Source: Lewinella sp. IMCC34183
GTDB lineage: Bacteria; Bacteroidota; Bacteroidia; Chitinophagales; Saprospiraceae
Reading direction: 5' to 3'
DNA length: 64,000 bases
Assembly (NCBI RefSeq): GCF_003390915.1
Contig: NZ_QMEM01000003.1
Coordinates: 1-64,000, forward strand
Under the pieces are notes generated by a model, which made no database searches, had not been told where the DNA came from, and saw only the letters and a program-made list of their open reading frames with translations. The translations under genes were made by a program, and so were the position numbers. Below, in pieces: positions 2,159 to 56,735 of this stretch (position 1 is its first letter; each line of letters starts with the position of its first letter).

Positions 2159-2178
2159 GCACCCGCGCCCCGCCGCCC
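2159..2178 (+). promoter_or_regulatory. GC-rich 20-base word, copy 1
   Basis: GCACCCGCGCCCCGCCGCCC, ending 68 nt before the start codon of the AsmA-like gene and oriented with it. Identical words occur at 46899-46918 and, on the minus strand, 54301-54320. A one-base variant lies at 56715-56735. All are upstream of start codons in the sense orientation. Function unknown. Confidence 0.6.
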
Positions 2179-2246
2179 AACAAACATCTGTGGCGTAAGC
2201 CCGCTTTTACCGGTGATGTTCCTCACCCACCCTACCGGTCCGACGT

Positions 2247-4769
2247 ATGGCCACTGATTCTTTCCGCTTTCGCTGGTGGTATTTGCTCTTCCTCCTGCCC
2301 GTGGTGCTCTACGTCGGGGCCCGGTGGTACGTCGGTCACCGGATCGATCGGGCCATCGCCTCGGCCAACGACTCGGGTAACGTGCTTGCCGTAGCTGATT
2401 ACGACTACTCCCTGTTCCCCATCGCGCTTTCGGCCCGCGGCATCCGCTTCGAGCAGGACCGCCCCGCCTTCGCCGCCCGCGGTTCCCTCAGCCGCCTGCG
2501 GGTGAGTGGCCTCGAGGTATTCAGCCTCATCGGTTCCGACCCGATCGCCCTGAACCGCATCGAACTGTCGGGCATGGACGCCGACGTAACACGCAAACCG
2601 GTGCAAAGCAACGACAGTAGTTCTTTAAAACTGGAGGTATCGGCGATCGACCTCGACAGCATCTTCCTGCGCATCGAGGACGCCGCCAACGGGACCTCCC
2701 TGCGGCTGGCCGACCTCGGCCTTTCGCTGGAATCCTTCCACCTGCCCTTTCAGCCCACCGGCATCCGCTCGCTGCGCATCACGGCCGACTCGGCCACCTA
2801 CCGAAAACCGGCGGACGATCTCTCCGTCATCGCCTCCGAACTTACCTACGCCCAAGCCGACGCCTCCACCCGCCTGCAGCGGCTGGTGCTTTCCCGCGGC
2901 GGCGACACCCGCGTGGAGGCCCGCGACGTAGCCTTTACCGGCCTCAACGCGGAAGACGTAGACGACCAGATCACCCTCGACAGCCTGACCATCGGGTACC
3001 TGGGCGGCGGAGCGCGGGTGCCGGGCGGGTCCGGAGAGGCGCAGGACACTTCCGGTTCCGGTATGCCGGCCCTTCGCGTCAACCGCCTGCACCTCCCGGA
3101 TATTGACCTGCGCGTGAGTGGCGGATTCGGGACGGCGGACTACGCCGGCTCCCTGAGGGTGACCGGTGTCACCTACCGGGATAGCCTTACCGCCGAGCGG
3201 TTGGAGGTGGCGGGAGACAGCATCCGGTACGACAACGGAAAGGACCTGGCCGTGCTGCTGCACCAACTTCAACTGGAGCAGCAAGACCTCCGCTTACCCT
3301 TTGCCGGCGGGTCCCTGGGCCCCACCGACATCCGTATCCCGGACTTCAGCGTAGACCAGGGCGCACGGAACATCACCGGCCGGGAGCTCGTGTACCGAAG
3401 TACCGCGGGCGACCTGCGCATTGCGGGCGTCACCGTCACCGGCGGCAAGGTAGAGGGACAAGTCGATAGCCTGTTCCTCACCGGTATCCAGCGCGACGCC
3501 CTGCTCGGACCGCAACCCAGCCGGGCCGGTCAGCTGGTAGCCGTCGACGCCCGGACGAGGATCAACCGTCCGGACGGCGGCCACTATACCGTCCATACCC
3601 CGCGGCTAGTGGCGGACGGTCTTCGGTTCGAGGGGCAGGCCGGAGCCGAGCGGATACGGATGGAAAACGCCTCCTTCGAGCGCTTCGGCTCCGACGGGCG
3701 CAAGGATATGGAGGGCACCGGGATCTACGTGGACCAGCGCACCGTCCGCCAGCCGTTCGAGCCGAAGACCTTCGGCCCGGCCAAGGCGCGGCTGGCCCGG
3801 CTGCGGATGATCGGCGGGAACGACCTGCCGGTGGATTACGTATTCAACGCAGTAGCCTACGACAGCCGCGCGGGGCGGCTTACCCTCGACAGCCTGCGGC
3901 GCGTCAACCGGATCACGCCGGGTGAGCTGTTCGACCGCGAACTGGCGAAGTCCTTCCTGACCTTCGACATCGACGGGCTGCGGGCAACCGGTATCCGCCA
4001 CGACGCCCTGGTTACCGGCGAGCTCATCTACCTGGACTCCCTGGAGGCGCAGGATATGCGGCTGTCGGTCATCGAGGACCTGTCGCTCACCCTCCCCGAC
4101 CGCAAGAAGGCCATGCCGATCGAGGCCCTGCGTAAGATCGGCCCGCGCGTGGTCCTTCAGAACGCCCGTTTCAAGTCTACGGATATCTCCTACGGCGTCG
4201 TCGACTCCATCCTCGAGCCCAAGACCATTCACTTTCGGGATGCGATGATCCGGATTGCCGGACTAGATACCGAGGTCAGCCAGACCGACTCGGCCACGGC
4301 CGTCATTGACGCCACTTTCGAGGGGACGACGCCCCTGCACGCGGAATTCCGCCTGGCCCGCTCGGCCGGGGGGCGCGACTACGCGGCCACGGGCGAACTG
4401 GGCAAGTACGACCTCAGCCGGGTCAATCCGCTCATGCGGGTGGCGGCCGACGCCATCATCGACGAGGGCGTGATCGAACGGCTCACCTACCGCAGCCTGA
4501 TGCAGAACGATACCGTTACCGGCACCATGGACCTGGTATACCGCAACCTGGACCTTAAGGTAGTGGGCAACGGGGCCTGGATCAAGAATCTGTTGTCAGG
4601 GGTGGTTGTCAAAAATGATAATCTCCGCGGGGAGGATTTCCGGGAAGGTCAGATCTTCTCCCCCCACGACCCGACGAAGAGTTTTTTTAACTCCTACTGG
4701 AAGGGCCTGGTGAGCGGTATGAAGAGCTCGGCGATGTCGGACATCGCGCTGCCCGAGGAACTCGACTAG
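2247..4769 (+). CDS. AsmA/TamB-like membrane-anchored beta-rich protein
   Basis: An 840-residue protein with one N-terminal membrane helix (about residues 8-26, WWYLLFLLPVVLYVGARWYV). A long body of alternating short beta-strands follows, rich in D, R, G and L with many LxLDSL-type repeats. This is the look of AsmA-like proteins, which sit in the inner membrane and span the periplasm, where relatives help move lipids to or maintain the outer membrane. The C-terminal segment (SFFNSYWKGLVSGMKSS) resembles the conserved end of large Bacteroidota hypothetical proteins of this kind. The assignment is by overall pattern only; no catalytic motif was seen. The gene diverges from parE and its stop codon overlaps that of the convergent permease gene by four bases. 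Confidence 0.6.
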   Translation: MATDSFRFRWWYLLFLLPVVLYVGARWYVGHRIDRAIASANDSGNVLAVADYDYSLFPIALSARGIRFEQDRPAFAARGSLSRLRVSGLEVFSLIGSDPIALNRIELSGMDADVTRKPVQSNDSSSLKLEVSAIDLDSIFLRIEDAANGTSLRLADLGLSLESFHLPFQPTGIRSLRITADSATYRKPADDLSVIASELTYAQADASTRLQRLVLSRGGDTRVEARDVAFTGLNAEDVDDQITLDSLTIGYLGGGARVPGGSGEAQDTSGSGMPALRVNRLHLPDIDLRVSGGFGTADYAGSLRVTGVTYRDSLTAERLEVAGDSIRYDNGKDLAVLLHQLQLEQQDLRLPFAGGSLGPTDIRIPDFSVDQGARNITGRELVYRSTAGDLRIAGVTVTGGKVEGQVDSLFLTGIQRDALLGPQPSRAGQLVAVDARTRINRPDGGHYTVHTPRLVADGLRFEGQAGAERIRMENASFERFGSDGRKDMEGTGIYVDQRTVRQPFEPKTFGPAKARLARLRMIGGNDLPVDYVFNAVAYDSRAGRLTLDSLRRVNRITPGELFDRELAKSFLTFDIDGLRATGIRHDALVTGELIYLDSLEAQDMRLSVIEDLSLTLPDRKKAMPIEALRKIGPRVVLQNARFKSTDISYGVVDSILEPKTIHFRDAMIRIAGLDTEVSQTDSATAVIDATFEGTTPLHAEFRLARSAGGRDYAATGELGKYDLSRVNPLMRVAADAIIDEGVIERLTYRSLMQNDTVTGTMDLVYRNLDLKVVGNGAWIKNLLSGVVVKNDNLRGEDFREGQIFSPHDPTKSFFNSYWKGLVSGMKSSAMSDIALPEELD

Positions 4770-5875
4770 CCCAGCTCGCTGCCGGCGTCGGCCAGCACAT
4801 CGCTCTCGCGGGTGAGCACCTTGTCGCGTTTAAGTCGCTTGGTATCTACGTCGCCGTTGCGGCTCAGCAGGATGGCGATGGGACGGGTCTGGGGGAATTG
4901 CGCGCAGATGATAATGATGGCTACGGTGATCGGCACGCTGAGCAGCATACCCACGATCCCCCACAGCATGGACCACAGGATGAGGGTGAGCACCACCACC
5001 AGCGGACTGATGTTGAGCGAGCTGCCCATAAGCCGCGGTTCGACGATGTTGCCGACCAGGATCTGCACCGCGGTCACGCCGATCACTACCACCAGGAAGG
5101 GCGTGAGCGTATCGAACTGGACCAGGGCCAGCAGGGCGGGAAGGGCCGTGGCGGTGATGGACCCGATCGTGGGTACGAAATTGAACAGGAAGATCAAAAA
5201 GGCCCAGAACAGGGAGTAGTCGAGGCCGATGATAGAGAAGATAACGAAGCTCAGCGCCCCCGTGGCGATACTGGTGAGGGTCTTTACGCCGAGGTAGGTG
5301 CGCATGGCGGCGTTGATCTCGGCCAGTGTGCGGGTGAAGCGGGTGCTGCGGCGCATGTCGAGGCCCAGGGCTTCCATCTTCTTGGGAAAGGTGCCCTGCT
5401 CGATGAGGAAAAAGATCACGTAGAGGAGCACGAGCGCGATGCCCTTGGCGGCGCTGGTCACGCCGGCGAGTACGAGCGCGAAGTTGCCGAGGATCTGCTG
5501 TCCGAGCTCGAGGTCACCAACTGAGGGCGGCGGCCGGTTGATGCCGAGGCTTTCGTAGGCGTTGGCGATCTGGGCTTCGATCTTAGGCAAGTAGACGCCG
5601 CTCTCAAGGATGAAACCATTGACGGTGTTGACGATCATGTCCGATATGGCGTACAGCGCCAGGCCGATGAAGATGAGGGACATGGTCAGGGTGATGCCGT
5701 TGGGCAGGCGCGTACCCACGAAGGGGAGGTGGCGAAACTGGTTGTTCAGTGCGTTGACCAGGTACCACAGCACGAGCGCCATGAAGATGGGCACCAGGTA
5801 GCTTTTGCCCACCACGATGAGGGTCAGGACAAGGCCGATACTGAGCAGCCAGGCGGCGACGCGAAAAACGGACAT
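4766..5875 (-). CDS. AI-2E family transporter (PerM/TqsA-like permease)
   Basis: A polytopic inner-membrane protein of 369 residues with about seven to eight hydrophobic segments. These come as a pair at the N-terminus, a long central soluble stretch (roughly 85-150), and then a dense C-terminal membrane block with FNFVPTIGS and EPRLMGSSLNISPLVVV. These are hallmarks of the AI-2E/PerM family. Relatives include quorum-signal exporters and sodium/proton antiporters, so the substrate cannot be inferred. I chose the ATG at 5875; a frame open to a TTG at 5911 would add 12 residues. It converges on the AsmA-like gene, sharing the tetranucleotide CTAG as overlapping stop codons, and diverges from icd. 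Confidence 0.85.
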   Translation of the reverse strand: MSVFRVAAWLLSIGLVLTLIVVGKSYLVPIFMALVLWYLVNALNNQFRHLPFVGTRLPNGITLTMSLIFIGLALYAISDMIVNTVNGFILESGVYLPKIEAQIANAYESLGINRPPPSVGDLELGQQILGNFALVLAGVTSAAKGIALVLLYVIFFLIEQGTFPKKMEALGLDMRRSTRFTRTLAEINAAMRTYLGVKTLTSIATGALSFVIFSIIGLDYSLFWAFLIFLFNFVPTIGSITATALPALLALVQFDTLTPFLVVVIGVTAVQILVGNIVEPRLMGSSLNISPLVVVLTLILWSMLWGIVGMLLSVPITVAIIIICAQFPQTRPIAILLSRNGDVDTKRLKRDKVLTRESDVLADAGSELG

Positions 5876-5982
5876 CAACAACGGGGGGTTTTGTGCAGGG
5901 GTAACGATCAAACACCCCCGATTGTGTTGCTAAACCTCGCCCCCTTCCGGGGAGTTACTTTACACACTGAGCGATTTATCGC

Positions 5983-5990
5983 TATTTTCG
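5983..5990 (+). promoter_or_regulatory. possible icd -7 box (TATTTTCG)
   Basis: A one-mismatch match to TAnnTTTG located 46 nt before the icd start. No convincing -33 element was seen. Confidence 0.35.
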
Positions 5991-6036
5991 CCGGCCGACC
6001 CCTTCGCGGGTTGCCACCAAAAATCTAAACACATAC

Positions 6037-7266
<1,230 letters not shown>

Positions 7267-7299
7267 AAGTGAATCTGAGCTGATTTTTAGATTCATCGT

Positions 7300-7333
7300 A
7301 AGGGTCATCGTCTTTGGGCGGTGGCCCTTTTTT
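7300..7333 (+). terminator. icd terminator
   Basis: AAGGGTCA at 7300-7307 pairs with TGGCCCTT at 7322-7329 (one G-U pair), followed by a T run to 7333. A second small stem, GAATCT/AGATTC, lies just after the stop codon. Confidence 0.6.
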
Positions 7334-7410
7334 GGGTTGCGGGTTGCGGGTTGCGGGTTGCGGGTTGCGGGTTGCGGGTTGCGGGTTGCGGGTTGCGGGT
7401 TGCGGGTTGC
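7334..7410. repeat. heptamer array (GGGTTGC) x 11
   Basis: Exactly 11 perfect copies of GGGTTGC directly after the icd terminator T run. Two copies of the reverse complement, GCAACCC, occur at 7873-7886 on the far side of the S23-like gene, so the gene is bracketed by inverted repeats. Confidence 0.95.
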
Positions 7411-7440
7411 AACAATATGTTTATTTGTAATATTAGTTAA

Positions 7441-7448
7441 TATTTTTG
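7441..7448 (+). promoter_or_regulatory. -7 box of the S23-like gene (TATTTTTG)
   Basis: Exact TAnnTTTG inside an AT-rich stretch (7410-7470) that contrasts with the GC-rich surroundings, 42 nt before the start codon. Confidence 0.55.
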
Positions 7449-7490
7449 TTTTATATTTCCCTCCCCATTGCCTACCACTTACCAGAGAAA

Positions 7491-7868
7491 ATGAGTCAAT
7501 CTTACCAGGACCTTGAGGTCTACAAGCAGTCGCTCGGGCTGTTCTTGCGCGTACATGAGTTTAGCCGCAAATTGCCTAAGCTTGAAACCTACGAATTAGG
7601 GAGTCAGGTCCGGCGGTCTGCTGATTCTGTGAATAGCAATATCGTGGAGGGATACGGACGGAGGCGGTACAAACGCGACTTCCTCCGATTTCTGGTCTTC
7701 GCCCATGCCAGTAACGACGAGACGGTAAACCACCTCAAGAAGATTGGGATGCTATACCCCGGCCTCCGGGCGGAAGCAGAGGAGTTGCAAGCCGGCTACG
7801 ATACGCTTGGGCGACAGATCCATAGTTTTAGTTCGTACGTGGCGGTAAAGTGGAAAACTCCAGCTTAG
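7491..7868 (+). CDS. four-helix-bundle protein, S23/IVP family
   Basis: A 125-residue, largely helical basic protein. The pattern YQDLEVYKQSLGLFLRVHEFSRKLPKLETYELGSQVRRSADSVNSNIVEGYGR is typical of the family first seen in intervening sequences of 23S rRNA genes and related to Avd of diversity-generating retroelements. The biochemical function of free-standing members is unknown; RNA or nucleic-acid binding is a reasonable inference. I start it at the ATG at 7491, since upstream in-frame codons read hydrophobic leader-like noise that includes the promoter. There is no retroelement reverse transcriptase or 23S rRNA nearby. The gene is flanked by (GGGTTGC)n on the left and (GCAACCC)n right after its stop codon, and its promoter region is AT-rich. 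Both suggest an inserted cassette. Confidence 0.85.
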   Translation: MSQSYQDLEVYKQSLGLFLRVHEFSRKLPKLETYELGSQVRRSADSVNSNIVEGYGRRRYKRDFLRFLVFAHASNDETVNHLKKIGMLYPGLRAEAEELQAGYDTLGRQIHSFSSYVAVKWKTPA

Positions 7869-7886
7869 CCCCGCAACCCGCAACCC
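7869..7886. repeat. inverted heptamers (GCAACCC) x 2
   Basis: Two copies plus a partial, starting at the base after the S23-like stop codon. They are the reverse complement of the array at 7334-7410. Confidence 0.85.
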
Positions 7887-7891
7887 ATACC

Positions 7892-8557: not shown

Positions 8558-8725
8558 ACCAGGGAAACACCGGTGGCCAGGGCTTGTGTTGAACGCTTGG
8601 TAGAATTGCCACGGCCATTCGTCGGTTCCGGGGCGCCAGCCGATACGTTAAAGCGGACTGGATTGCCGAACCCAAGTCGTCCGCCCGGCATTTGAAATAC
8701 ACTGAGCCCCCTAACTGATACCGAC

Positions 8726-10777: not shown

Positions 10778-10948
10778 ACCGTGATAGTTTCCGTAGGAAC
10801 ACCACTTAACGCTATTCAGTTGCATTAAGGAAAACACTGATACTGCTTCCTAACGCCGGGTCCGGTAAACGGGTGCGGCCCACCGTCACTTTCGTGCTAC
10901 TGGCAGTGTACTTTCCGGGTTACCACCGCAAGCGCAGCCAGCGTTACC

Positions 10949-13557: not shown

Positions 13558-13962
13558 ATGCACACCTCACGCTTTTTCCTGCTGCTGGCCGGCGTTACGC
13601 TGCTGGCGGTAGCTGGCGTAGCCCTTAGCCACTGGTTGTTGCCCATCGGCTACGCGCTACCGTTTTCGGTGGCTACCCTGCTGCTGTTCCTGTTTCTGTG
13701 TACCGTGATCTTTTTCCTGGGCCGGCGGAGCGCGGGTGCGGCGAATCGCATGTTATTCAGCAATGTCTTTCTGGCTGCCACCATGGCGAAGATGTTCCTG
13801 TGCGGCATCCTGGTGGTGGGCTACGTGATCCTGGGCGAACCGGAAAGCAAGCTCTTCATCGTCCCCTTCTTCTGGCTGTACCTGGTGTACACCGGCTTCG
13901 AGGTCTACTTCCTTATGAAGGTGAGCGCGATCGTCGCGCGGCCTGAGCCCGCCGAATCATAG
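13558..13962 (+). CDS. small four-helix membrane protein, unknown function
   Basis: A 134-residue protein with four clear transmembrane segments (about 5-27, 32-53, 70-92 and 100-122) and short loops. Basic residues sit after helix 2 (GRRSAGAANR). I do not recognise a family; the size and topology resemble AtpI-like or DUF-type accessory proteins, but no ATP synthase genes are nearby. It lies 25 nt after the cytochrome-like gene but has its own strong promoter. It converges on, and slightly overlaps, the end of the beta-barrel gene at 13957. Confidence 0.7.
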   Translation: MHTSRFFLLLAGVTLLAVAGVALSHWLLPIGYALPFSVATLLLFLFLCTVIFFLGRRSAGAANRMLFSNVFLAATMAKMFLCGILVVGYVILGEPESKLFIVPFFWLYLVYTGFEVYFLMKVSAIVARPEPAES

Positions 13963-15220: not shown

Positions 15221-16051
15221 ATGCAGTACATTCTTTTGGCACTCCTGACCCTGGGCCTGACGAGCTGCGGTTCCGACGCACCGGCCCGGGCGGGACAACC
15301 CACGCCCGTAGCCCCCACCGCCGTAGACCCCGCACCCGCGGCCCCGCCCGCCTCCGCTCCCGCAGACAGCCTGTTCGGCCTCCCCATCTATACTTACATC
15401 ACCGGGCAGTTCGACCCCGCCGAACAGGAAGCTTTCGTGCGGGTGGACGATACGTACACCGACGGCGACCCCTACCTGCTGCACCGCGACGCCTACGCGG
15501 CCTTCGAGCGGATGCACGCCGCCGCCCTGGCCGACGACGTACGGCTCACCATCGTCTCGGCCACCCGCAATTTTGCCCGGCAGAAGCAGATCTGGGAAGC
15601 CAAATGGAACGGTCAGCGGCTGCTCGAGGGTACCGAGCGTGCCAACGAGGTCTACCCGGACCCCGCCGAGCGGGCCCGCGCTATCCTGCGGTACTCCAGC
15701 ATGCCCGGCACGAGCCGCCACCACTGGGGCACCGACATGGACCTCAATGCCCTGAACAACGGCTACTTCCGGGAGGGGAAGGGCAAGAAAATATACGACT
15801 GGCTGACCGCCCACGCCGCCGACTACGGCTTCTGCCAACCCTATACGGCCAAGGGCCCCGACCGCCCCTCCGGCTACGAAGAGGAGCGGTGGCACTGGAG
15901 CTACGTGCCCCTGGCCACCCGCCTGACCGACTACGCCGCCACCCGGCTGAACGACGCGGACATCAGCGGGTTTGCCGGGGCGGAGGCCGCTCCGCGCATC
16001 GAGGTGGTCAAAAACTACGTGCTCGGCGTGAATCCCGCCTGCAAGCAGTAG
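15221..16051 (+). CDS. M15 family metallopeptidase lipoprotein (VanY-like D-Ala-D-Ala carboxypeptidase)
   Basis: A zinc peptidase predicted to trim cell-wall peptides outside the inner membrane. It has 276 residues, a lipobox LTSC (Cys16) and a P/A-rich linker to about residue 50, then the M15B domain. Motifs are SATRNFARQ near 112, the zinc motif RHHWGTDMDL near 165 (HxxGxxxD), and ERWHWSY near 222 with the second zinc histidine and the catalytic glutamate. The ATG at 15221 is chosen because it immediately precedes the signal peptide; the frame runs on upstream without family-like sequence. It diverges from the broken barrel gene. Confidence 0.85.
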   Translation: MQYILLALLTLGLTSCGSDAPARAGQPTPVAPTAVDPAPAAPPASAPADSLFGLPIYTYITGQFDPAEQEAFVRVDDTYTDGDPYLLHRDAYAAFERMHAAALADDVRLTIVSATRNFARQKQIWEAKWNGQRLLEGTERANEVYPDPAERARAILRYSSMPGTSRHHWGTDMDLNALNNGYFREGKGKKIYDWLTAHAADYGFCQPYTAKGPDRPSGYEEERWHWSYVPLATRLTDYAATRLNDADISGFAGAEAAPRIEVVKNYVLGVNPACKQ

Positions 16052-25178: not shown

Positions 25179-25468
25179 GCCATTTCGAGGATGGTCCGCC
25201 CGGCTTCGGTGCGGTACTGCAGTTTTTCCACGTCTACCCGGCGCAGCAGGGCTTTGGGGTCAGGTGCGGCCGTCTTTTCCGTCGGGGTGCTGTCGTAGGG
25301 GGCGGGGGCAGCGGCGGGCGCGGACGCGGGTGCGGTGACGAGCTGGGCGATGAGCTCGTGCAAGCCCAGGTTAACCAGGTCGTCGGAGACGGCGAAAGTA
25401 CCCTCCACGCGACTGCCCTCGAGGTCGGCAAAGTCGGTGTTCATCAGGTGTTGCAGGACGGGGTGCAT
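25160..25468 (-). CDS. small protein with Ala/Pro linker, unknown function
   Basis: A 102-residue protein that I do not recognise. A first domain (MHPVLQHLMNTDFADLEGSRVEGTFAVSDDLVNLGLHELIAQLV, ~45 residues) is joined by an alanine/proline-rich linker to a C-terminal helix-rich segment (DPKALLRRVDVEKLQYRTEAGRTILEMACAIKK). It follows the gene at 25471 with a gap of two bases, so the two are cotranscribed and may form a complex. The rpsU promoter overlaps its 3' end. No signal peptide. Confidence 0.65.
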   Translation of the reverse strand: MHPVLQHLMNTDFADLEGSRVEGTFAVSDDLVNLGLHELIAQLVTAPASAPAAAPAPYDSTPTEKTAAPDPKALLRRVDVEKLQYRTEAGRTILEMACAIKK

Positions 25469-26188: not shown

Positions 26189-28645
26189 ATGAGATTGATT
26201 TACACTGCCTTACTAATATTGCTTTGCACCTGCGTCCGCGCCCAGACTGACGGCACCTCGCCGCCGGAACTCGCCCCCAATACGGGCGGCGTGGGCGGAA
26301 AGCTTACCGAGGCCGGCAGCGAGGCTCCGGTGGGTTTTGCCAACGTCGCGGTCTATAGTGTGGAAAACGGCGAAATGGTCGGGGGCACCACCAGCGATAT
26401 CGACGGCAATTTTACCCTGAAGAACCTCCCCTTCGGCGACTATCGCCTGGAGGTCTCCTTCATCGGCTACGAAGATGAGGAGATGCTGCTGGAACTCAAC
26501 AACGGCGAGCGCTTCATCCAGATGGGCAAGATCGACCTCAGCCAGGGCGGGGCCACGGACCTCGACGAGGTGGTGGTGACCGCCGAGCGCGCGATTATGG
26601 AACTGGGCCTGGACCGTAAATCCTTCAACGTGGAAAAGAGCGTCGCCTCCAGCGGCGGCTCCGCCGAGGACCTGCTGCGGCAGATCCCCAGCATCAACGT
26701 GGACCTGGAGGGTAACGTGAGCCTGCGGGGCAGCGGCGGGGTCCGCTTCCTGATCAACGGCCGCCCGAGCGGCCTGGTGGGCACCGATCCCACTTCCTAC
26801 CTGAAGTCACTGAGCTCCAGCGCCATCGAACGGGTGGAGGTGATCACCAACCCCGGCGCCGCCTTTGACCCCGAGGGTACGGCGGGCATCATCAACATCG
26901 TACTGAAGAAAAAGCAGGACGACGGCTTCAATGCCTCCATCAACCTGAATGCGGGCACCGGAAACAAATTTGACGGCAACCTCGACCTCAACTGGCGCAA
27001 GGGGAAGTTCAACTCCTTCGCCGGCGTGAGCGCGCGCTACGACGAGCGCTTCTTCCGCGGCTACCGCGACCAGTCCGGCACACTCGGCGACAGCCTATTT
27101 AGCCGTTACTTCACCTTCGAGGGCGACCGCCTGAACCGCTCGCAGATGTTCAAACTGGGTACCGAGTATGCCCTTTCCGACCGCGCCTCGATCGGCATCC
27201 AGGGTAACTATCAGCTAGAGACCGGCAGCAACTCGAACCTGCGGACGACCCAGTTCTTCGACAGCGAGAACACCCTCGACCGCACCAGCGTCCGCAACGA
27301 AACCGAACCCAGCGACGAAACCGACTACGAGATCCAGCTCAACTACAATCAGACCTTCCGTAAGGAAGGCCGGCGCCTGACGGGCCAGCTGCAGTACAGC
27401 CAGAACGACGAGAGCGAAATCGAGAACTACTACGAGGTCATCACCGACGCCTTCGGCGCTCCCTACGCCCCCGACGGGCGGCAACGCTCCCCTACCCTGG
27501 AGGACCGTACCCGCTTCCTGGGGGAACTGAACTACGAGCAGACCTTCGGCGACTTCAAGTTTACCACCGGCTGGCGCTCCACAATCGAGCAGCTGGAAAC
27601 CGACGCCGCCTTCCAGATCTTCGGCGGTGGTGACTACGCCACGGTGGACAGCCTGAGTAACCTCTTCCGCTACGACGAGGAAGTACACGCCCTCTACGCT
27701 ACCATCGGCGGCAAGGTGGGCAAGGTGACCTTCAACGCCGGACTGCGGGCCGAGCAGGCCTACACCACCAGCAACCTGCTGGAGCCGAACCCCGAGGTGT
27801 TCAACAACGACTACTTCAGCCTCTACCCCAGCGTGTTCGCCGGGTACAGCTTTACGGAAAACACTACGCTGCAGGCCAGCTACAGCCGCCGGGTGGAACG
27901 CCCGCGCGCCTGGGCGCTGAACCCCTTCGTCGACCGGGGCGATCCCTTCAACCTTCGCAGCGGTAACCCCTTTCTCCTGCCCGAGCGGATCAACAGCTTC
28001 GAACTGAACCTGCAGCAGCAGTACGGCAAGGGCACCCTGACCGGGGGCGTCTACTTCCGCCAGCTTACCGACATCATCAGCCGCATCACCCGCATCCAGG
28101 AGGGCGGCGTAAGCCTGAGCACCCGCGCCAACCTGGACCGCGGCCGCAACTACGGCGTGGAACTGATCGGCACCTACCGGCCCACCAACAAGCTGGACCT
28201 GACCGTGAGCGCCAACGGTTACCGCAGCGAGATCATCGGCAACAGCGACGACGAGAACATCGACCAGAATGGCTATCTCTTTAGCGGCAACGTGCAGGGC
28301 AGCTATAAACTGCCGTGGGACGTGCAGGCCCAGTTCACCTATTTCTACCGCAGCCCCGGCGTACGTCCCCAGGGGCGGATCCAGGCCATGCAGAGCCTTG
28401 ACCTCGGCTTCCGCAAGGATATTCTGGACGGTAAGGGTGCCGTCACCCTGCGGGTATCCGACCTCTTCAATACGCGTCGGTACAGCTACACCACCGAGAC
28501 CGGCGGCATCACTACCGTCAGCGAGTTCCAGCGTGAGAGCCGGATCGCCTACATCGGCTTCCAGTACAGCCTCAACCAACTCGGCCGTGGCGACCGCGAA
28601 GAGCGGCGCGGCGGCGACGGCGGTGGGATGAACGACGACTTTTAG
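26189..28645 (+). CDS. TonB-dependent receptor-like outer-membrane barrel (OMP_b-brl_3 type)
   Basis: An 818-residue outer-membrane protein. In order: a signal peptide (MRLIYTALLILLCTCVRAQ), a carboxypeptidase-regulatory-like beta-sandwich (~32-115, ending FIGYEDEEMLLEL), a TonB plug (LRQIPSINVDLEGNVSLRGSGGVRFLINGRPSG, then IERVEVITNPGAAFDPEGTAGIINIVLKKK), and a large barrel. It ends in a Gly/Asp-rich tail (RGGDGGGMNDDF) rather than a terminal aromatic strand, which is common in this group. The ligand is unknown. It has no SusD partner, so it is not a classical glycan SusC. The ATG at 26189 is taken because the frame continues upstream only through non-coding sequence. Confidence 0.9.
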   Translation: MRLIYTALLILLCTCVRAQTDGTSPPELAPNTGGVGGKLTEAGSEAPVGFANVAVYSVENGEMVGGTTSDIDGNFTLKNLPFGDYRLEVSFIGYEDEEMLLELNNGERFIQMGKIDLSQGGATDLDEVVVTAERAIMELGLDRKSFNVEKSVASSGGSAEDLLRQIPSINVDLEGNVSLRGSGGVRFLINGRPSGLVGTDPTSYLKSLSSSAIERVEVITNPGAAFDPEGTAGIINIVLKKKQDDGFNASINLNAGTGNKFDGNLDLNWRKGKFNSFAGVSARYDERFFRGYRDQSGTLGDSLFSRYFTFEGDRLNRSQMFKLGTEYALSDRASIGIQGNYQLETGSNSNLRTTQFFDSENTLDRTSVRNETEPSDETDYEIQLNYNQTFRKEGRRLTGQLQYSQNDESEIENYYEVITDAFGAPYAPDGRQRSPTLEDRTRFLGELNYEQTFGDFKFTTGWRSTIEQLETDAAFQIFGGGDYATVDSLSNLFRYDEEVHALYATIGGKVGKVTFNAGLRAEQAYTTSNLLEPNPEVFNNDYFSLYPSVFAGYSFTENTTLQASYSRRVERPRAWALNPFVDRGDPFNLRSGNPFLLPERINSFELNLQQQYGKGTLTGGVYFRQLTDIISRITRIQEGGVSLSTRANLDRGRNYGVELIGTYRPTNKLDLTVSANGYRSEIIGNSDDENIDQNGYLFSGNVQGSYKLPWDVQAQFTYFYRSPGVRPQGRIQAMQSLDLGFRKDILDGKGAVTLRVSDLFNTRRYSYTTETGGITTVSEFQRESRIAYIGFQYSLNQLGRGDREERRGGDGGGMNDDF

Positions 28646-33319: not shown

Positions 33320-33843
33320 ACTACCTCGATTACCTGCTCACCCATACCTACGAGCAGCTGCCCGCTACCATACGAAATGAGGTCACCGAGCGCGACTATA
33401 GCAGCCGCAGATCCGTTGCCCTCGGCCTGCGCGCGCGCGCCGTCGATCTGCCCCCGGTACTCCGGCAAGCCTACCGACGGACGGTGGCGGTCCGGCCGCG
33501 CGCCCGCCGCCGATTCTACTGGGTGGCGGCGGCCGGCTGGCTGCTGGCGATCGCCGCGGGCGTCCTCCTTCTCGGCCATCAACCCCGGCTGGAGTACGTC
33601 GCCCGGGTAAGTCCGCCGGTGATCGAGCGGGATACGGTGGAAGTGACTCGCCACGACACCGTGGTGCGGGTGGTCTACCGGGACCGCCTGCTCCGCGATA
33701 CCTTCATTGCACCCGCGCCCGCGCCCACCTACCTCGTGGTGCACGATACGGTTTACCGGGCCCCGAAAGTGCCCTATCCTGTGGGTACGGTGGCGGTTGA
33801 CCCCGCCGGGTTGTCGCTCCTCGTCGGCAGTCGCGGAGACTAA
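33316..33843 (+). CDS. single-pass membrane protein, putative anti-sigma factor
   Basis: A 175-residue protein with a basic cytoplasmic N-terminal part (~1-65), one transmembrane helix (~68-88, YWVAAAGWLLAIAAGVLLLG) and a periplasmic tail rich in VERDTVEVTRHDTVVRVVYRD repeats. It overlaps the ECF sigma gene by four bases (ATGA at 33316). By topology and coupling it is probably the membrane anti-sigma factor for that sigma. No ZAS-type zinc motif (HxxxCxxC) is present, so this is inference. The periplasmic tail could sense the FGE-like protein. Confidence 0.65.
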   Translation: MNYLDYLLTHTYEQLPATIRNEVTERDYSSRRSVALGLRARAVDLPPVLRQAYRRTVAVRPRARRRFYWVAAAGWLLAIAAGVLLLGHQPRLEYVARVSPPVIERDTVEVTRHDTVVRVVYRDRLLRDTFIAPAPAPTYLVVHDTVYRAPKVPYPVGTVAVDPAGLSLLVGSRGD

Positions 33844-46655: not shown

Positions 46656-46676
46656 GATGTAGACTTATAGCGAGTA

Positions 46677-46684: not shown

Positions 46685-46692
46685 GCCAACCA

Positions 46693-46813: not shown

Positions 46814-46837
46814 TTTCGTCGCGCTTCCGCCCCGAAT

Positions 46838-46874: not shown

Positions 46875-46898
46875 GGCTGCGCGACCGGCACGTTCACG

Positions 46899-46918
46899 GC
46901 ACCCGCGCCCCGCCGCCC
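46899..46918 (+). promoter_or_regulatory. GC-rich 20-base word, copy 2
   Basis: GCACCCGCGCCCCGCCGCCC, identical to 2159-2178, ending 67 nt before the regulator start and 18 nt before its possible -7 box. Confidence 0.6.
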
Positions 46919-46936
46919 GGTCTATCCGTAATTCGA

Positions 46937-46944
46937 TACATTAG
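46937..46944 (+). promoter_or_regulatory. possible -7 box TACATTAG of the regulator gene
   Basis: TAnnTTAG variant, 41 nt before the start codon at 46986. Confidence 0.35.
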
Positions 46945-46985
46945 CCTGAATCCACGCCGGACCAACGGAAGGTGGCGATACAACA

Positions 46986-50996: not shown

Positions 50997-51034
50997 AAAA
51001 AGCCGTCGGTTGCGCAGTGCGCAACCGACGGCTT
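50995..51034 (-). terminator. 16-bp perfect hairpin terminator
   Basis: AGCCGTCGGTTGCGCA (51001-51016) and its exact complement (51018-51033) around one central base, with an A run at 50995-51001. On the minus strand the stem is followed by a U run, so it terminates the protease-propeller-barrel gene. The stem may also stop the convergent regulator transcript. Confidence 0.85.
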
Positions 51035-51059
51035 CCCGAAAGGAGAACGATCGACTCTA

Positions 51060-54000
51060 CTACCAGCCCGGCAGCAGGTTCAGCCCGAAGCTCCAGCTCG
51101 CGCCGTCGATCAGCGGACGGGCCAGGTAGGGCTCCACCACCAGCTGTCCGAAGACGTTGACGCGGGCGCTCACGCCGGCGGTGAAGATGGGCCGTACGCC
51201 CGGGGTGACCACGGTGGGCTGCCCGGTCAGGGGGTTGATTAGCACTTCACCGTCCTTGTCCAGCGTGTAGGTCGCGCCACCGAACTGGCTGACGTCCGTG
51301 AACGCCATACCGCCGTCAATGAAGAAGTTGAGGTCGCTGAAGAGGAACTTCGACTTGATCAGGGCTATCTGCTCCGGACCGGTAAAGGGTACGCGCAGCT
51401 CCAGGTTGGAGACGAACAGCTTGCTGCCGACCAGCTCGTTGAGGTCGCGGCCCGCCCCCTGCAGGGTGGTCACGGCATCGTTGGCGTTTAGGCCGCGCAT
51501 GTACCAGGGGCTGCCGACGTACAGCGGGAAGAGGGTGTTGCCCCCGTCGCCGTAGCGACCGTAGTGCAGGGCGCGGAAGGCCAGGGCTCCCTTGCCGAAC
51601 CACAGGTACTTGCGGTAATCGGTGTTGACCGCCGTAAAGTTGAAGCGGCCCAGGTACTGGTCCACCCCGAAGCGGTACCGGTGGCCGCGGATCGGGGCCG
51701 TCATTCCCATGTCGGAGTTGTCGCCCACCAGGGCCACACCGGCGTTGTAGAGGTTGAAGGTCTCCTGCTCCAGCTCACGCTGCCGCTCGGGCTGGGCGTT
51801 GACCTGAATGGGATAGTACGTCACCGGGTTGTAGTAGCGGGCGTAGCGGTCGACCCGGTTGTTGTAGATGCTGGCGCTGATGCTGCCCTCGAGGCGTACG
51901 TTGGTGTTGAACGGCAGGGAGGCGAAACCGCTGACCTGGTTCTGGTACAGCCGGCTGATCAGGTAAGGCGCGTTGATCAGGTCGACGTAGTTGCCGTCCC
52001 CCACCTGAATGCTGTCGCGGAAGGGGGCCTCCACGCCGAAGTTGCGGTAAGGGATGCGGCTCAGGCTAAAGCCGTAGTTGATCCGGGTCTTGCGGTTCAC
52101 CCAGGCCAGGCTGCCGCCGAAATCGGTGATCTCACCATTCAGGCTCAGGGCCGTGAAGAGCTGGTTGTTGCCCAAGATGTCACTGAAGAGCAGCTGCACG
52201 CCACCGGCCAGGCCGGTGGTGGTACCGAAGACCTGGTTACTGCCCACCCCGGCACCGGCACCGCCGGTGGCGTAGTCGAGCTTGAATTTGGGCGCGTAGG
52301 GCCGCCGGGTGATCTGGTCGGAGGTGATCACGTCCTGCTTGTCCATGTGGGTGAGCAGTTCGTCCACGATGAGGTTGGCGCGGCGGTTAAGGCGCGGCAG
52401 GGTGGCCGGCGTGAGGTCCACGGAATCGCGGGCCACGCGTACCGCTTCCATGTTCTTCACCATGGTGCCGTAGATCTTGTAGCCGTTCTGGTTGAAGTAG
52501 GTATAGAGCAGGCGGTTGTTGCTCCGGTCGATGCTCATGGCGGGGGCGTAGTGGGTGATGCCCGATACGCCGGTGATGAGGTCGGTGAGGCGGTCGACGG
52601 TCGCATCAGCCACATGGTAGCGGTACACGTTGCGGAAGCCGTCGCGGTTGCTCAGGAAGTAGAGGTTACCGTCGGCTCCCTCGATGGGGTTCAGGTTGTC
52701 GGCACCCGGGAAGACGTCGATCTCGCGGCTCTCGCGGGAGGCCACGTCCAGGGCGGCGAGGTTGAAGCGCAGGTTGCCGTAGGGGCGCTCCTTGCGCTGG
52801 ATACCGCGGGCGTCGGTACTGAAGTAGATCGTGGTGCCGTCGGCCGACCAGCTCGGGTGGATCTCGCTGTATACGTCGTTGGTAAGCTGGGTCACGCGTC
52901 CGCTGCGCACGTCGATGCTAAAGAGGTCGGTCTGTCCATCCACGAGGCCGGACACGACAATGGATTTTCCGTCCGGGCTCCAGGCCGGGAAGGTGAAGGC
53001 GGGTACCTCGTCGAGGCGGATCTCCCGTTCGGCCTTGCCGGATTCGACGTCGGCGATGATGAGGCTGTTCTGCCCCTTGCTTACGGCTACGTAGGCGAAC
53101 TGCTTGCTGTCGGGACTCCAGGTACCGCTGTTTTCGATGTAGCTGATCTCATCGATGTGGCTGCCCAGCTTGGAGGTGCGGATCTTGCGGATCTTTTCAC
53201 CGGTGCGGGCGTCGGCCAGGAAGAGGTCGATGCTGAAGAGGTCCTGCTCCGACAGGTAGATCATGTACTTGCCGTTGGGGCTGATCTCGGGCGACACGTT
53301 GATGCGTCCGCCGTTCTTGCCGGGGCCCACCAGCTCCTTGCCCACGTAGCGGTCGGCCTTGGCTTCGCCGATCTGCTCACCGTAAGTCTTGCGCAGGGCA
53401 TCCTCCCACAGGTCGCTGAAGGCGTCGAACTCGTAACCGAGTACCAGTTTCGTGGCGCGCTCAAGCCCGAACTTCGCCGTGGCGCGGAAGTAGGGATTGA
53501 TGACGTCATCGCCCTGCAGGCCGGTGACGAACGACCAGAAGGCCTGTCCGTAGCGGTAGGGGAAGTACTTGCCGCTGCTCAGGTCCTTGAGGCTGGGGAT
53601 GTCGTCGTTGAGCACGGCGTCGCGCATCCACATGGCGGTGAAGGGGTCCACGGAGCCGATACTCAGGTACTCGGCGAGGCCCTCGACCATCCAGAGGGGG
53701 ATCTTCTGCAGGTCGCGGAGACTGGTAGAGTCGCCCCGGATCACCATGTCGTACTGGAAGGCGTGGACTAGCTCGTGGCCCAGGACGTGGTGGGTCTGGG
53801 CGTTGGTGTGCGCCACGGGCAGTACCACCCGGTTCTTGAGGGCCTCGGTGACCCCGCCGGTGCCGGAGCCGATGGCCCCGCTGATGGCGTTGGTCTGCTG
53901 GAAGTCCGCGTGGTTCGCGTAGATGATCATCGGGTTCTTGAAGTCGATCGTATCGCGCAGCACGAGCTGGTGCACGCGGTACCATTCCTCGCTGTCGTTC

Positions 54001-54188
54001 AGGAAGTTCTTCAGCCACTCCTCGTTGTCGATGTAGGTGTACAGCTCGAAGTGGGGCGTCTGGTAGACGTCGTAGTCAAAGTTTTCGTAGTTGGGCTTAT
54101 TACGACCGAAGGAGTTGAAGCCCTGGGCGGTGGTGAGCACCGGCAGGCAGAGCAACAGGGCCAGCAGATGGAGGGTTATCGTTTTCAT
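51060..54188 (-). CDS. secreted metalloprotease-propeller-barrel fusion protein
   Basis: A 1042-residue envelope protein with three parts. After the signal peptide (TITLHLLALLLCLPVLTTAQ) comes a gluzincin-like domain (~30-260) with HVLGHELVHAFQYD (HExxH near 136-140) and WMVEGLAEYLS near 165, supplying the third zinc ligand. Then a TolB-like propeller (~270-600) with NVSPEISPNGKYMIYLS, GTWSPDSKQFAYVA, FPAWSPDGKSIVVSG and HPSWSADGTTIYFSTDARG blades. The C-terminal ~400 residues are a BamA/surface-antigen-like barrel ending DGASWSFGLNLLPGW. Such fusions occur in Bacteroidota and are poorly studied; an outer-membrane protease anchored by its own barrel is the likely picture. I start at the ATG at 54188, not a GTG three codons upstream. 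Confidence 0.8.
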   Translation of the reverse strand: MKTITLHLLALLLCLPVLTTAQGFNSFGRNKPNYENFDYDVYQTPHFELYTYIDNEEWLKNFLNDSEEWYRVHQLVLRDTIDFKNPMIIYANHADFQQTNAISGAIGSGTGGVTEALKNRVVLPVAHTNAQTHHVLGHELVHAFQYDMVIRGDSTSLRDLQKIPLWMVEGLAEYLSIGSVDPFTAMWMRDAVLNDDIPSLKDLSSGKYFPYRYGQAFWSFVTGLQGDDVINPYFRATAKFGLERATKLVLGYEFDAFSDLWEDALRKTYGEQIGEAKADRYVGKELVGPGKNGGRINVSPEISPNGKYMIYLSEQDLFSIDLFLADARTGEKIRKIRTSKLGSHIDEISYIENSGTWSPDSKQFAYVAVSKGQNSLIIADVESGKAEREIRLDEVPAFTFPAWSPDGKSIVVSGLVDGQTDLFSIDVRSGRVTQLTNDVYSEIHPSWSADGTTIYFSTDARGIQRKERPYGNLRFNLAALDVASRESREIDVFPGADNLNPIEGADGNLYFLSNRDGFRNVYRYHVADATVDRLTDLITGVSGITHYAPAMSIDRSNNRLLYTYFNQNGYKIYGTMVKNMEAVRVARDSVDLTPATLPRLNRRANLIVDELLTHMDKQDVITSDQITRRPYAPKFKLDYATGGAGAGVGSNQVFGTTTGLAGGVQLLFSDILGNNQLFTALSLNGEITDFGGSLAWVNRKTRINYGFSLSRIPYRNFGVEAPFRDSIQVGDGNYVDLINAPYLISRLYQNQVSGFASLPFNTNVRLEGSISASIYNNRVDRYARYYNPVTYYPIQVNAQPERQRELEQETFNLYNAGVALVGDNSDMGMTAPIRGHRYRFGVDQYLGRFNFTAVNTDYRKYLWFGKGALAFRALHYGRYGDGGNTLFPLYVGSPWYMRGLNANDAVTTLQGAGRDLNELVGSKLFVSNLELRVPFTGPEQIALIKSKFLFSDLNFFIDGGMAFTDVSQFGGATYTLDKDGEVLINPLTGQPTVVTPGVRPIFTAGVSARVNVFGQLVVEPYLARPLIDGASWSFGLNLLPGW

Positions 54189-54300
54189 TTTACGCACTAA
54201 TCTTGGGGAATACTTTCACTTTATTAACACCTGGCAGACGGGCCTCCCCCTAAGCCACGTTTGTCGGCCAGGCTTAACAAAATGTTATTTTAGGGGGGCC

Positions 54301-54320
54301 GGGCGGCGGGGCGCGGGTGC
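54301..54320 (-). promoter_or_regulatory. GC-rich 20-base word, copy 3 (minus strand)
   Basis: Exact reverse complement of the word at 2159. On the minus strand it lies 112 nt upstream of the ATG at 54188 and about 13 nt before TAACATTTTG, so it is again in sense orientation. It also marks the left border of the 115-bp array. Confidence 0.6.
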
Positions 54321-54329
54321 CGGGGGGGG

Positions 54330-55270
54330 TTGAGTTGCCGCGCAATTCCGGGTGGAGGACCTCCGGTCCGAGCGGGCTACATAATATCCTGCCGCTGGCT
54401 AACCCGCGCTTCTAAATCGGGCCGCAGGCCCTCAACCCGTTGGTGTGAATTATCGCGCAAATCCGGGTGGAGGACCTCCGGTCCGAGCGGGCTACATAAT
54501 ATTCTGCCGCTGGCTAACCCGCGCTTCTATATCGGGCCGGAAGCCCTCAACCCGTTGGTGTGAATTATCGCGCAAATCCGGGTGGAGGACCTCCGGTCCG
54601 AGCGGGCTACATAATATCCTGCCGCTGGCTACCCGCGCTTCTATATCGGGCCGGAGGCCCTCAACCCCGGGGGGTTGAGTTGCCGAGCAATTCCGGGTGG
54701 AGGACCTCCGGTCCGAGCGGGCTACATAATATCCACCGCTCGCTACCCGCGCTTCTAAATCGGGCCGCAGGCCCTCAACCCGTTGGTGTGAATTATCGCG
54801 CACATCCGGGTGGAGGACCTCCGGTCCGAGCGGGCTAAATAATATTCTGCCGCTGGCTAACCCGCGCTTCTAAATCGGGCCGGAGGCCCTCAACCCCGGG
54901 GGGGGTTGAGTTGCCGCGCAATTCCGGGTGGAGGACCTCCGGTCCGAGCGGGCTAAATAATATTCTGCCGCTGGCTAACCCGCGCTTCTAAATCGGGCCG
55001 GAGGCCCTCAACCCGTTGGTGTGAATTATCGCGCACATCCGGGTGGAGGACCTCCGGTCCGAGCGGGCTGCATAATATCCACCGCTGGCTACCCGCGCTT
55101 CTATATCGGGCCGGAGGCCCTCAACCCGGGGGGGGTTGAGTTGCCGAGCAATTCCGGGTGGAGGACCTCCGGTCCGAGCGGGCTAAATAATATTCTGCCG
55201 CTGGCTAACCCGCGCTTCTAAATCGGGCCGGAGGCCCTCAACCCGTGCCGCAGGTCCTCAACCCGGGGGG
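54330..55270. repeat. 115-bp tandem repeat array, eight copies
   Basis: The core CCGGGTGGAGGACCTCCGG begins at 54348, 54463, 54578, 54693, 54806, 54924, 55039 and 55154, i.e. spacing 115, 115, 115, 113, 118, 115 and 115. Two linker types occur: type A (CAACCCC..GGGGTTGAGTTGCCG) before copies 1, 4, 6 and 8, and type B (CCCGTTGGTGTGAATTATCGCG) before copies 2, 3, 5 and 7. Each unit contains small stems (GGACC-TCC-GGTCC, GGGCC-GGA-GGCCC), and type A linkers form CTCAACCC/GGGTTGAG. Since 115 is not a multiple of three, an open frame cannot run in phase through the copies, so I regard the array as non-coding. It fills the gap between the minus-strand GH43 and protease genes. Confidence 0.95.
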
Positions 55271-55282
55271 TCAGCGTTGCCG

Positions 55283-56311
55283 TTACTTTATCGCCGCCAC
55301 GCCCTCATTGGTCATCACCACCGGCTTGATCGTACCGTCCGCGTTGAAGTACATGCGGTCGATGCAGGTGACCCGGTGGTCGCGGCCCTCGTTGGGGATG
55401 GGGCGGCGGTGGTAGACGATGTACCAGTCGTCCGTATCCGGCACGTGGGTGACGGAGTGGTGACCGGCACCGGTAGCAATGTCCGGATCGGAGGAAAGGA
55501 TGGTGCCTACCCGCTTAAAGGGCCCGAGCGGGCTGTCGGACATGGCGTAGGCGACGTGGTAACTATCGTTGGTCCAGCCGCCCTCTGACCACATGAAGTA
55601 GTAGGTGCCGTTGCGCTTGAACATAAAGGGGCCTTCCACGTAGCCTTCCGGCGTCACGTCGTGAAAGAGCTGTCCGTCTTCCCAGGGCAGGAAGCCGGTG
55701 TAGTCGTCGTTGAGCCTACCCACGTTGCACTTGCCCCAGCCGCCGTAGAACATGTAGTCGGTACCGTCGTCGTCACGGAAGACAAACTGGTCGATCGGCT
55801 GGGCATCGTGGTAAAAGCTGTCGATAAGCGGCTTGCCCAGGTGGTCGGTGAAGGGCCCACCGGGGCTATCGGCCACGGCCACCCCAATGCCGCCGTAGTG
55901 GTTGATGTCGTTGTCGGGGTCCCAGCAGCAGGTGCGCGAGGGGCGTTGCACGTCATTCCCTCCGAAGAAGAGGTAGTACTTGCCATCCTTTTCGATGGCC
56001 GCCGGCGCCCACATGGCCTGCCGCACCCAGGTCACGATCGAGGTGTCCAGTACGTGGGGGTGTTTCTCCCAGTGCACCAGGTCGGTGGAGGAAAAGGCAT
56101 CGAGAAATAATTGGTCTTCGTAGCCGGCCGAGTAGGTGGGGTAGATCCAGTATTCCTCCCCGAAGCGGACGACCTCGGGATCGGCGTACCATCCTTCGAA
56201 AATAGGATTGCCGGACATTTCGCCCGCACTAGTGGCCGTCGTGACGGTATCGGAGGTGGTGCGTCCGCATGCGAGCAGGGCCAGCAGCGGCAGGAAGAGA
56301 AACTGTTTCAT
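55283..56311 (-). CDS. GH43 family glycosidase lipoprotein (outside the PUL)
   Basis: A 342-residue lipoprotein (lipobox LLAC, Cys15) with the five-bladed GH43 fold. Catalytic acids are in EGWYADPEVVRFGEEYWIYPT (base), QPIDQFVFRDDDGTDYMFYGG (modulator) and YVEGPFMFKRNGTYYFMWSEGGW (acid). MWAPAAIEKDGKYYLFF is the family strand. It is probably an arabinosidase or xylosidase of the subgroup that includes alpha-L-arabinofuranosidases. It stands alone, 5 kb from the PUL, and may belong to the same regulon. Its 3' end borders the 115-bp array. A TATATTGG box lies four bases before its ATG. Confidence 0.88.
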   Translation of the reverse strand: MKQFLFLPLLALLACGRTTSDTVTTATSAGEMSGNPIFEGWYADPEVVRFGEEYWIYPTYSAGYEDQLFLDAFSSTDLVHWEKHPHVLDTSIVTWVRQAMWAPAAIEKDGKYYLFFGGNDVQRPSRTCCWDPDNDINHYGGIGVAVADSPGGPFTDHLGKPLIDSFYHDAQPIDQFVFRDDDGTDYMFYGGWGKCNVGRLNDDYTGFLPWEDGQLFHDVTPEGYVEGPFMFKRNGTYYFMWSEGGWTNDSYHVAYAMSDSPLGPFKRVGTILSSDPDIATGAGHHSVTHVPDTDDWYIVYHRRPIPNEGRDHRVTCIDRMYFNADGTIKPVVMTNEGVAAIK

Positions 56312-56315
56312 ACCG

Positions 56316-56323
56316 CCAATATA
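56316..56323 (-). promoter_or_regulatory. possible -7 box TATATTGG 4 nt before ATG
   Basis: TAnnTTGG followed by CGGT and the ATG at 56311, the same CGGT-ATG arrangement as at 13554-13560. Candidate leaderless start. Confidence 0.35.
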
Positions 56324-56714
56324 GTAGCTGGCGCACGCAAATACGGTAGAGGTTAATCGTTTTAGCCGGCGGCGCGCAGGTGCAGGGAGGCGTGCTCCCG
56401 CGGCGGTAGCCTAATCTTGGCAGGAGAGCCTGACCGATAGCGGGTCTTTCCTATCCAGTCAGGGTGACCCGCGCTACGGTGGTGGCTAGGAGTGGGAAGT
56501 GATTGCGGGTCCCGGGTTATAGGGATTAAGGGGGAACGGCCCGGCACCCGTTTTTCTAGCCGGTGAGCGGCCCCCTATTCCCTCACCAGGAAAAGCAAAT
56601 GGATGCGACCCAAACAAAACCGATATTGCCGATCCCCCCGATCCCACCGAATAAATATTCGCCATTTGCCGGCCGGATAAAACCCGGTACACATATCAAT
56701 AGCCCATATACACC
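56324..56714. other. gene-free divergent region upstream of the GH15 gene
   Basis: About 390 bp without a credible gene. A 73-residue open frame (56563-56784) is proline-rich, crosses the promoter and looks accidental. The region contains the palindrome CGAATA-AA-TATTCG (56648-56661) and runs of CCCCCGATCCC-like repeats. Confidence 0.5.
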
Positions 56715-56735
56715 GCACCCGCGCCCCGCCGGCCC
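56715..56735 (+). promoter_or_regulatory. GC-rich 20-base word, copy 4 (one-base variant)
   Basis: GCACCCGCGCCCCGCCG followed by GCCC, i.e. one inserted G relative to copies 1-3. It ends 64 nt before the GH15 start and 13 nt before a TACTTTG box (56749-56755). Confidence 0.55.

Follow-up and report, generated by a model that had tools for sequence, protein, structure and literature searches.

A genus-restricted family of dispersed DNA words in Neolewinella and its likeness to DNA uptake sequences

The 64-kb window considered here, the whole stretch of DNA that was analysed (positions 1 to 64,000 of contig NZ_QMEM01000003.1 from Lewinella sp. IMCC34183), carries repeated copies of a GC-rich 20-base word, GCACCCGCGCCCCGCCGCCC. 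As stated in the original prediction, exact copies are present at 2159-2178 (+), between a divergent gene and an AsmA-like gene (2247-4769 (+), start at 2247), at 46899-46918 (+), 5' of a hybrid regulator gene, and at 54301-54320 (-), 5' of the gene at 51060-54188 (-). A fourth copy at 56715-56735 (+) faces a GH15 gene (56800-58599 (+); 68-87% identity in relatives L160-L168) and reads GCACCCGCGCCCCGCCGGCCC, which corresponds to one inserted G, as proposed, or equally to one substitution. The labels AsmA-like, hybrid regulator and GH15 are those of the prediction. Among named organisms, Neolewinella and Lewinella species have the proteins closest to this GH15. All four copies are intergenic and face a gene start; the distance is ~53-149 nt and varies with the choice of start codon. 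We found that these copies are real but are one form of a far more extensive family built on the core GCACCYGCG-N(3-7)-CGCC, which is dispersed through the genomes of Neolewinella and may work like a DNA uptake sequence.

The claim that every copy is intergenic held for the four named sites and failed for further copies in the window. Two additional long-form copies are antisense within genes. The first, at 3002-3021 (-), lies in the AsmA-like gene 756 nt from its start; it differs from the 20-mer at one position and matches the degenerate core fully. The second, at 13720-13739 (-), has one mismatch to the long core, lies in a small gene and is kept in the orthologue from the related genome G202 (163 nt against 166 nt from the start). 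Another long-form copy with one mismatch, at 56365-56383 (-), faces the gene at 55283-56311 (-). Copies with a short spacer were also identified, three of the four within called genes: GCACCCGCG-GCCC-CGCC at 15332-15348 (+), in sense orientation 111 nt from the called start and common to G202; GCACCCGCG-TCCG-CGCC at 25317-25333 (-), in sense orientation within an Ala/Pro-rich stretch; and GCACCCGCG-CCCG-CGCC at 33709-33725 (+), again in sense orientation. The fourth, GCACCTGCG-TCCG-CGCC at 26226-26242 (+), is intergenic with a called start 48 nt downstream. In total the window holds six matches to the 20-mer at three or fewer mismatches, against 0.11 expected, a number reached in none of 100 shuffles, and it gave no match to Rfam families at the gathering threshold. 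Beside the 54301 copy we also observed a block, AAAATAACATTTTGTTAAGCC, starting ~10 nt past the word and recurring 9-11 nt past the word in three relatives. A block AAAATAACRTTTTGTTAAG with a TAAC...GTTA dyad (one base different in L160) is found in the window 5' of the 51060-54188 gene and, in L160, L162 and L166, 9-11 bases past the word, 5' of the gene divergent from GH15.

Repetition beyond chance, as originally claimed, is borne out across the source genome (5.10 Mb in 57 contigs; G000 below), which contains 16 exact 20-mers and 161 copies at two or fewer mismatches, against a single match to the reversed pattern. Across the genus, GCACCYGCGN{2,9}CGCCC gave 184-1181 matches in 19 of the 21 Neolewinella genomes, in counts where a site fitting two spacers may be scored twice, and the reversed control gave 0-13. 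The spacer is 3 to 7 bases long, mostly 4 and 6. This family is restricted to the genus: in a sample of 150 genomes of the taxonomic family, 3 of them Neolewinella, each of the 147 genomes from other genera had at most 22 matches (controls at most 17). The long form was found in 4 of 199 family genomes, all four Neolewinella, and at one mismatch it is present in 19 of the 21 genus genomes.

The two exceptions among the 21 genomes are G206, with 2 matches, and G207, with 9. G207 has a different word start in hundreds of copies: its dialect YTACCTGCGCNCCGNCGC occurs there in 362 exact copies and in the other 20 genomes in 0-14 (14 in G215, one each in G200, G202 and G203, none in the remaining 16). 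De novo word counting in 220 kb of G207 recovered the same dialect, the top words being parts of TACCTGCGCTCCG. G206 is nearly without the word; in 180 kb of this genome (L281-L289) the top 9-mers were parts of a promoter-like word, TTGCTACTTTG, which resembles a strongly conserved -7 promoter box.

Beyond the core, weaker preferences extend into the flanks. In 78 long-form copies of the source genome the fourth base upstream is C at a frequency of 0.94, and the second is a pyrimidine at 0.98. Among 76 exact copies from a third genome, G116, TGCT/TGCC/GGCT boxes cluster 18-21 bases upstream (47 counts), with weaker preferences for AACCTTCC-TT before the word and CAAAA after it. Some species thus have a GCT box ~20 bases before the word and pyrimidine- or A-rich flanks. 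Since N4 and N6 spacers dominate, a hairpin of the form GCG-N4-CGC was considered; the first and last bases of the spacer show no consistent pairing. Inverted word pairs facing apart were seen in L127, L160 and L254, separated by 29, 29 and 46 bases, with imperfect palindromes between the words in L127 and L254. The word-pair search at two mismatches returned mostly chance pairs, and only those in L160 and L254 were taken from it.

Copies of the family are sharply concentrated at its consensus. With each site counted once at its best spacer, perfect and one-mismatch sites number 91:30 in G116, 75:49 in G202 and 152:132 in G000, compared with 0:3, 3:23 and 4:89 for the reversed controls. Sites with two mismatches are at or below control level (81 vs 114, 321 vs 332 and 866 vs 978, respectively). 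For the long form alone in G000 there are 35, 21 and 17 sites at 0, 1 and 2 mismatches, with controls of 0, 0 and 2.

To describe placement we used contigs not selected for the word. They hold 152 exact core copies for G000 (864 kb), 75 for G202 (400 kb) and 91 for G116 (400 kb). Intergenic DNA has 0.52, 0.61 and 0.77 copies per kb and genes have 0.13, 0.12 and 0.13, a 4-6 fold intergenic enrichment with copies on both strands. Copies as frequent inside genes as outside, or in random orientation, had been named beforehand as evidence against a role at gene starts, and part of that evidence is present: 96 of 152, 43 of 75 and 45 of 91 copies, or 49-63%, lie within called genes on both strands. 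Strand counts in four contigs are balanced (35/30, 42/45, 41/34 and 45/46 on + and -), which rules out a polar chromosome signal. Spacing in the same contigs is more even than random, the coefficient of variation (CV) of the gaps being 0.79, 0.70, 0.69 and 0.73 against 0.98-0.99 for random points (P 0.028 in one contig, and 0.000 of 2000 simulations in the other three). A gene-aware null, in which no gene and no intergenic region receives more than one copy, gave P values of 0.115, 0.0065, 0.006 and 0.031.

The proposal that copies lie 5' of genes and face them stands for the enrichment and for a tendency to face. Between genes of the same strand, 48 copies in the three-genome contigs face the downstream gene and 23 point the opposite way (P = 0.004), and in divergent regions 38 of 51 are nearer the gene they face. 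As a control for strand composition, three C-rich 5-mers were counted in the same intergenic regions with the words masked, giving 653:477; the difference from the word has P = 0.11. The bias is therefore moderate and does not clearly exceed what the excess of C over G between genes would give, and because 48:23 is not significantly different from 653:477 the argument from orientation is weak outside the long form of the source genome.

Positions inside genes are conserved. The internal copy of the AsmA-like gene recurs at nearly the same place, with 0-3 mismatches, in all eight orthologues from other species (45-56% identity to the query); five further genomes with weak partial matches only were taken as paralogues and excluded. 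In 83 reciprocal best pairs between G000 and G202, not chosen for the word (median identity 80%, a few of them distant and paralogue-like), coding words were present in both members of 10 pairs, in G000 only in 2, in G202 only in 6 and in neither in 65 (P = 2e-7). Conservation upstream of genes was also seen. A copy at two or fewer mismatches lies 5' of GH15 in 4 of 10 relatives, and 5' of uvrC a form recognisable by eye is present in 10 of the 21 genus genomes and absent from 11, five of the ten having a shorter spacer, e.g. GCACCTGCGGCCGCGCC. In the same uvrC regions (L240-L260) many of the 21 genomes have, by eye, a conserved arrangement resembling a promoter, a AACGWTTTGTTGG-like element followed by a GTTATTGC-like one a few bases before the ATG, which suggests a very short or absent leader.

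Codon alignment of 22 word spans between G000 and G202 indicates how coding copies may arise. In 7 spans word stands on word in the same codons, and 8 one-sided copies are aligned without a gap and differ at 3-11 bases, one of these eight (C34_54) coming from a pair at only 31% identity. Start codons may be misplaced in these comparisons. Codon identity inside words (65 of 66) is circular, both members of a pair having been chosen for the word, and was not used as evidence. BioA and PriA of the source genome likewise have no gap over the word when aligned with solved homologues. Together these alignments show that coding copies arise mostly by substitution, with insertion possible for some.

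These properties allow us to propose, tentatively, that the word works like a DNA uptake sequence, which we judge the most likely mode of action though short of probable. The proposal is made because copy number, sites, the excess of perfect copies, point mutation, spacing, flanks and dialects match what has been published for the DNA uptake sequence (DUS) of Neisseriaceae and the uptake signal sequence (USS) of Pasteurellaceae. In published descriptions of these sequences, copies are evenly spaced, commonly intragenic and gained by point mutation, the core has weaker flanks, and dialects exist (PMC1939737, PMC3630211; shared traits also from PMC7811141). Similarly, the Neolewinella word is in large excess on both strands in 19 of 21 genomes, with the strand balance taken from four contigs, and in contigs of three genomes its copies fall both within and between genes, as do the hundreds to thousands of DUS or USS copies. 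Perfect copies outnumber those with one mismatch, as in the 1471:764 given for H. influenzae USS in PMC1939737. It accumulates mostly by point mutation rather than insertion (with alanine racemase mixed), its core has weaker flanks, it has species dialects, and its spacing is more even than random, in three of four contigs also against the gene-aware null.

Under such a mechanism, a receptor on competent cells would prefer DNA carrying the word, and alleles that keep or gain it would spread through transformation and recombination. The word would then build up by point mutation wherever it is tolerated, between genes and in tolerant protein segments, would be held at perfect consensus and spread evenly, and would change in dialect if the receptor changed. 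The receptor, the uptake preference and the transformability of the genus are what we infer here. We do not file the word as a DUS or USS and claim membership of neither. Its sequence is unrelated to theirs, it is longer (~17-24 bp), it has a spacer of variable length, and it occurs in Bacteroidota and at lower density. With a spacer of varying length separating GCACCYGCG from CGCC, such a signature would be structurally unlike both DUS and USS.

The machinery differs as well. Known DUS and USS systems use type IV pili. ComP is a case in point (PMC12061091). In the 21 genomes, PF00437 gave no match resembling PilB or PilT, other pilus genes being unsearched; the matches are short and weak (24.9 bits at best, positions 139-222 of the 370 in the family, frames of ~950-1070 aa), and 11 of 21 genomes marginally pass the 24.9-bit cut-off. 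We read these marginal matches as other P-loop proteins, leaving no convincing pilus motor. Within Bacteroidota, Riemerella is shown in PMC8459023 to transform with ComEC, DprA, ComF, RecA and proteins outside the classical machinery. It is possible, though somewhat less likely than not, that Neolewinella has a self-DNA uptake signature with species dialects, recognised by a receptor other than a type IV pilus.

Several observations in addition to the missing pilus motor weigh against an uptake function. ComEC is present in all 21 genomes, including the word-poor G206, and was dropped as a discriminating gene. No uptake experiment or report of competence was found for Neolewinella. Density in the contigs examined, at about one copy per 4-6 kb, is below that of H. 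influenzae USS (~1 kb; PMC7811141), one of the four contigs shows no significant evenness of spacing under the gene-aware null (P = 0.115), and one-mismatch sites in G000 are mostly at control level (132 vs 89). The bias towards facing starts is not predicted by uptake and may be mostly strand composition; a link between low GC at third codon positions (GC3) and distance from the word is confounded by composition. Sharing of upstream words between G000 and G202 fell short of significance (5 pairs with both, 14 and 9 one-sided, 55 with neither; P = 0.29). As to origin, 7 of the 22 codon-aligned spans have a nearby gap, mostly at termini or in Ala/Pro-rich stretches, and in 2 of these 7 the word is in a stretch that the orthologue lacks, where insertion is possible. 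For alanine racemase, of three homologues shown one is without six residues at the word, one aligns without a gap and one has one additional residue.

The main rival explanation is an abundant DNA-binding protein that would use the word as its site all along the chromosome, acting in nucleoid organisation, segregation, repair or recombination, with a specificity that drifted between species. High information content with a consensus peak, the dialects, the even spacing and the intragenic conservation would all fit such an architectural role, and Karlin, according to PMC1939737, saw in the even spacing of USS an indication that they serve replication, repair or compaction. We nonetheless regard this explanation as somewhat unlikely: the near-absence of the word from G206 suggests a dispensable system, and a spacer of 3 to 7 bases, mostly 4 and 6, is unusual for a rigid duplex site. 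KOPS and Chi are polar chromosome signals, and the lack of strand skew sets the word apart from signals of that kind.

That a global transcription regulator uses the word as operator or upstream activator site, as first envisaged, is improbable. In its favour, besides the intergenic enrichment, are the long-form copies of the source genome. Across 70 loci selected for holding the long form (all 16 exact, 46 of 48 one-mismatch and 8 two-mismatch places, from the 161), 83 copies were placed with a small codon-model gene finder: 59 are intergenic, 15 intragenic in sense and 9 intragenic in antisense orientation. Of the 59, 19 lie in '++' and 6 in '--' arrangement, 30 in divergent regions (26 closer to the gene faced), 1 in a convergent region and 3 beside one unknown neighbour. 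The GH15 region of 3 of 10 relatives has two words each facing its own gene, the DNA between them diverged by eye, and in 10 of 21 species the form upstream of uvrC is followed by a conserved block like the -33 element. Set against this, a classical operator is not expected at hundreds of near-perfect sites of which half or more are intragenic on both strands, the orientation bias does not clearly exceed what strand composition gives, and the genes carrying the word (uvrC, priA, bioA, GH15, AsmA-like) are unrelated. The copies are neither restricted to regulatory regions nor in a regular relation to promoters.

The housekeeping promoter of Bacteroidota consists of a -33 TTTG and a -7 TAnnTTTG. 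The word is often close to such boxes, but it may precede or follow the -7 box and occurs far inside genes too. In the window, a -7 box 13-18 nt past the word had been described for three cases; a scan with TAnnTT[TGC][GAC] (L007-L009) found none downstream of the 2159, 46899 and 54301 copies, and for the 56715 copy, outside that scan, TACTTTG was seen by eye starting 14 nt after the word. Near 56 copies of G000 and G202, 38 -7 boxes are sense and 28 antisense, lying on both sides of the word; 9 start at most 20 nt directly downstream of it and 8 are within 40 nt upstream of its start. Because -7 boxes occur on both sides at variable distance, the word is not a promoter hexamer, and together with the copies deep inside genes this speaks against a promoter element, making the alternative promoter of the original prediction unlikely. 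Words are kept upstream of orthologous genes at GH15, at uvrC and in the 5 shared cases, but in the unselected comparison of G000 with G202 significance was reached only inside genes. The original interpretation is partly supported.

Finally, a very short mobile or copied repeat, of the repetitive extragenic palindromic (REP) or miniature inverted-repeat transposable element (MITE) kind or like cyanobacterial small dispersed repeats, would account for many near-identical dispersed copies, the inverted pairs in L127, L160 and L254 and the two coding copies in stretches missing from the orthologue, but is disfavoured as highly improbable by the gap-free alignments of BioA, PriA and the 8 one-sided orthologue copies, by flank preferences that are only weak beyond the core and by the lack of empty sites or insertion footprints in orthologous DNA, those two unaligned stretches aside.

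Iterated words of other kinds offer partial parallels. Cyanobacterial HIP1 is also an iterated short word characteristic of one lineage; it is a palindrome linked to DNA methyltransferases (PMC4390886), whereas in Neolewinella the word is an asymmetric, longer one with a spacer of variable length. Small dispersed repeats are likewise short, dispersed and present in many copies (PMC3116915), as are REP/REPIN elements, from all of which the word differs in being mostly without an insertion footprint in coding sequence and in keeping its intragenic positions across species. Among the matches listed, in which subscription journals are mostly uncovered, no title or beginning of an abstract describes the word or a DUS or USS in Bacteroidota. 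Neisseriaceae are known for uptake sequences with dialects and Pasteurellaceae for uptake signals, and both groups use pili. If Bacteroidota hold an independent case, it would suggest that self-recognition in DNA exchange between bacteria arose once more with different machinery, and the outer-membrane DNA receptor of this phylum, about which little is known, would become easier to approach. Even as a chromosome-organising site, the word would be a genus-typical feature in hundreds of copies, with no report among the matches listed.

Other repeats were met alongside. In G116 (contig C27, ~293.9-304.2 kb, reverse strand; L275-L276) an array resembling clustered regularly interspaced short palindromic repeats (CRISPR) has 60 occurrences of GTCTTAATC at a median spacing of 73 bases, in the portion inspected as a repeat GTCTTAATCCTTCTTGTGATGGATGAGGCTCCGGAGG. 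Contig C50 of G000 contains an iterated, partly tandem word, ACTACAGAAC(TA), unrelated to the signature word, with one copy at window position 31. In 464 kb of the same contig, ACTACAGAA occurs 17 and 8 times on the two strands.

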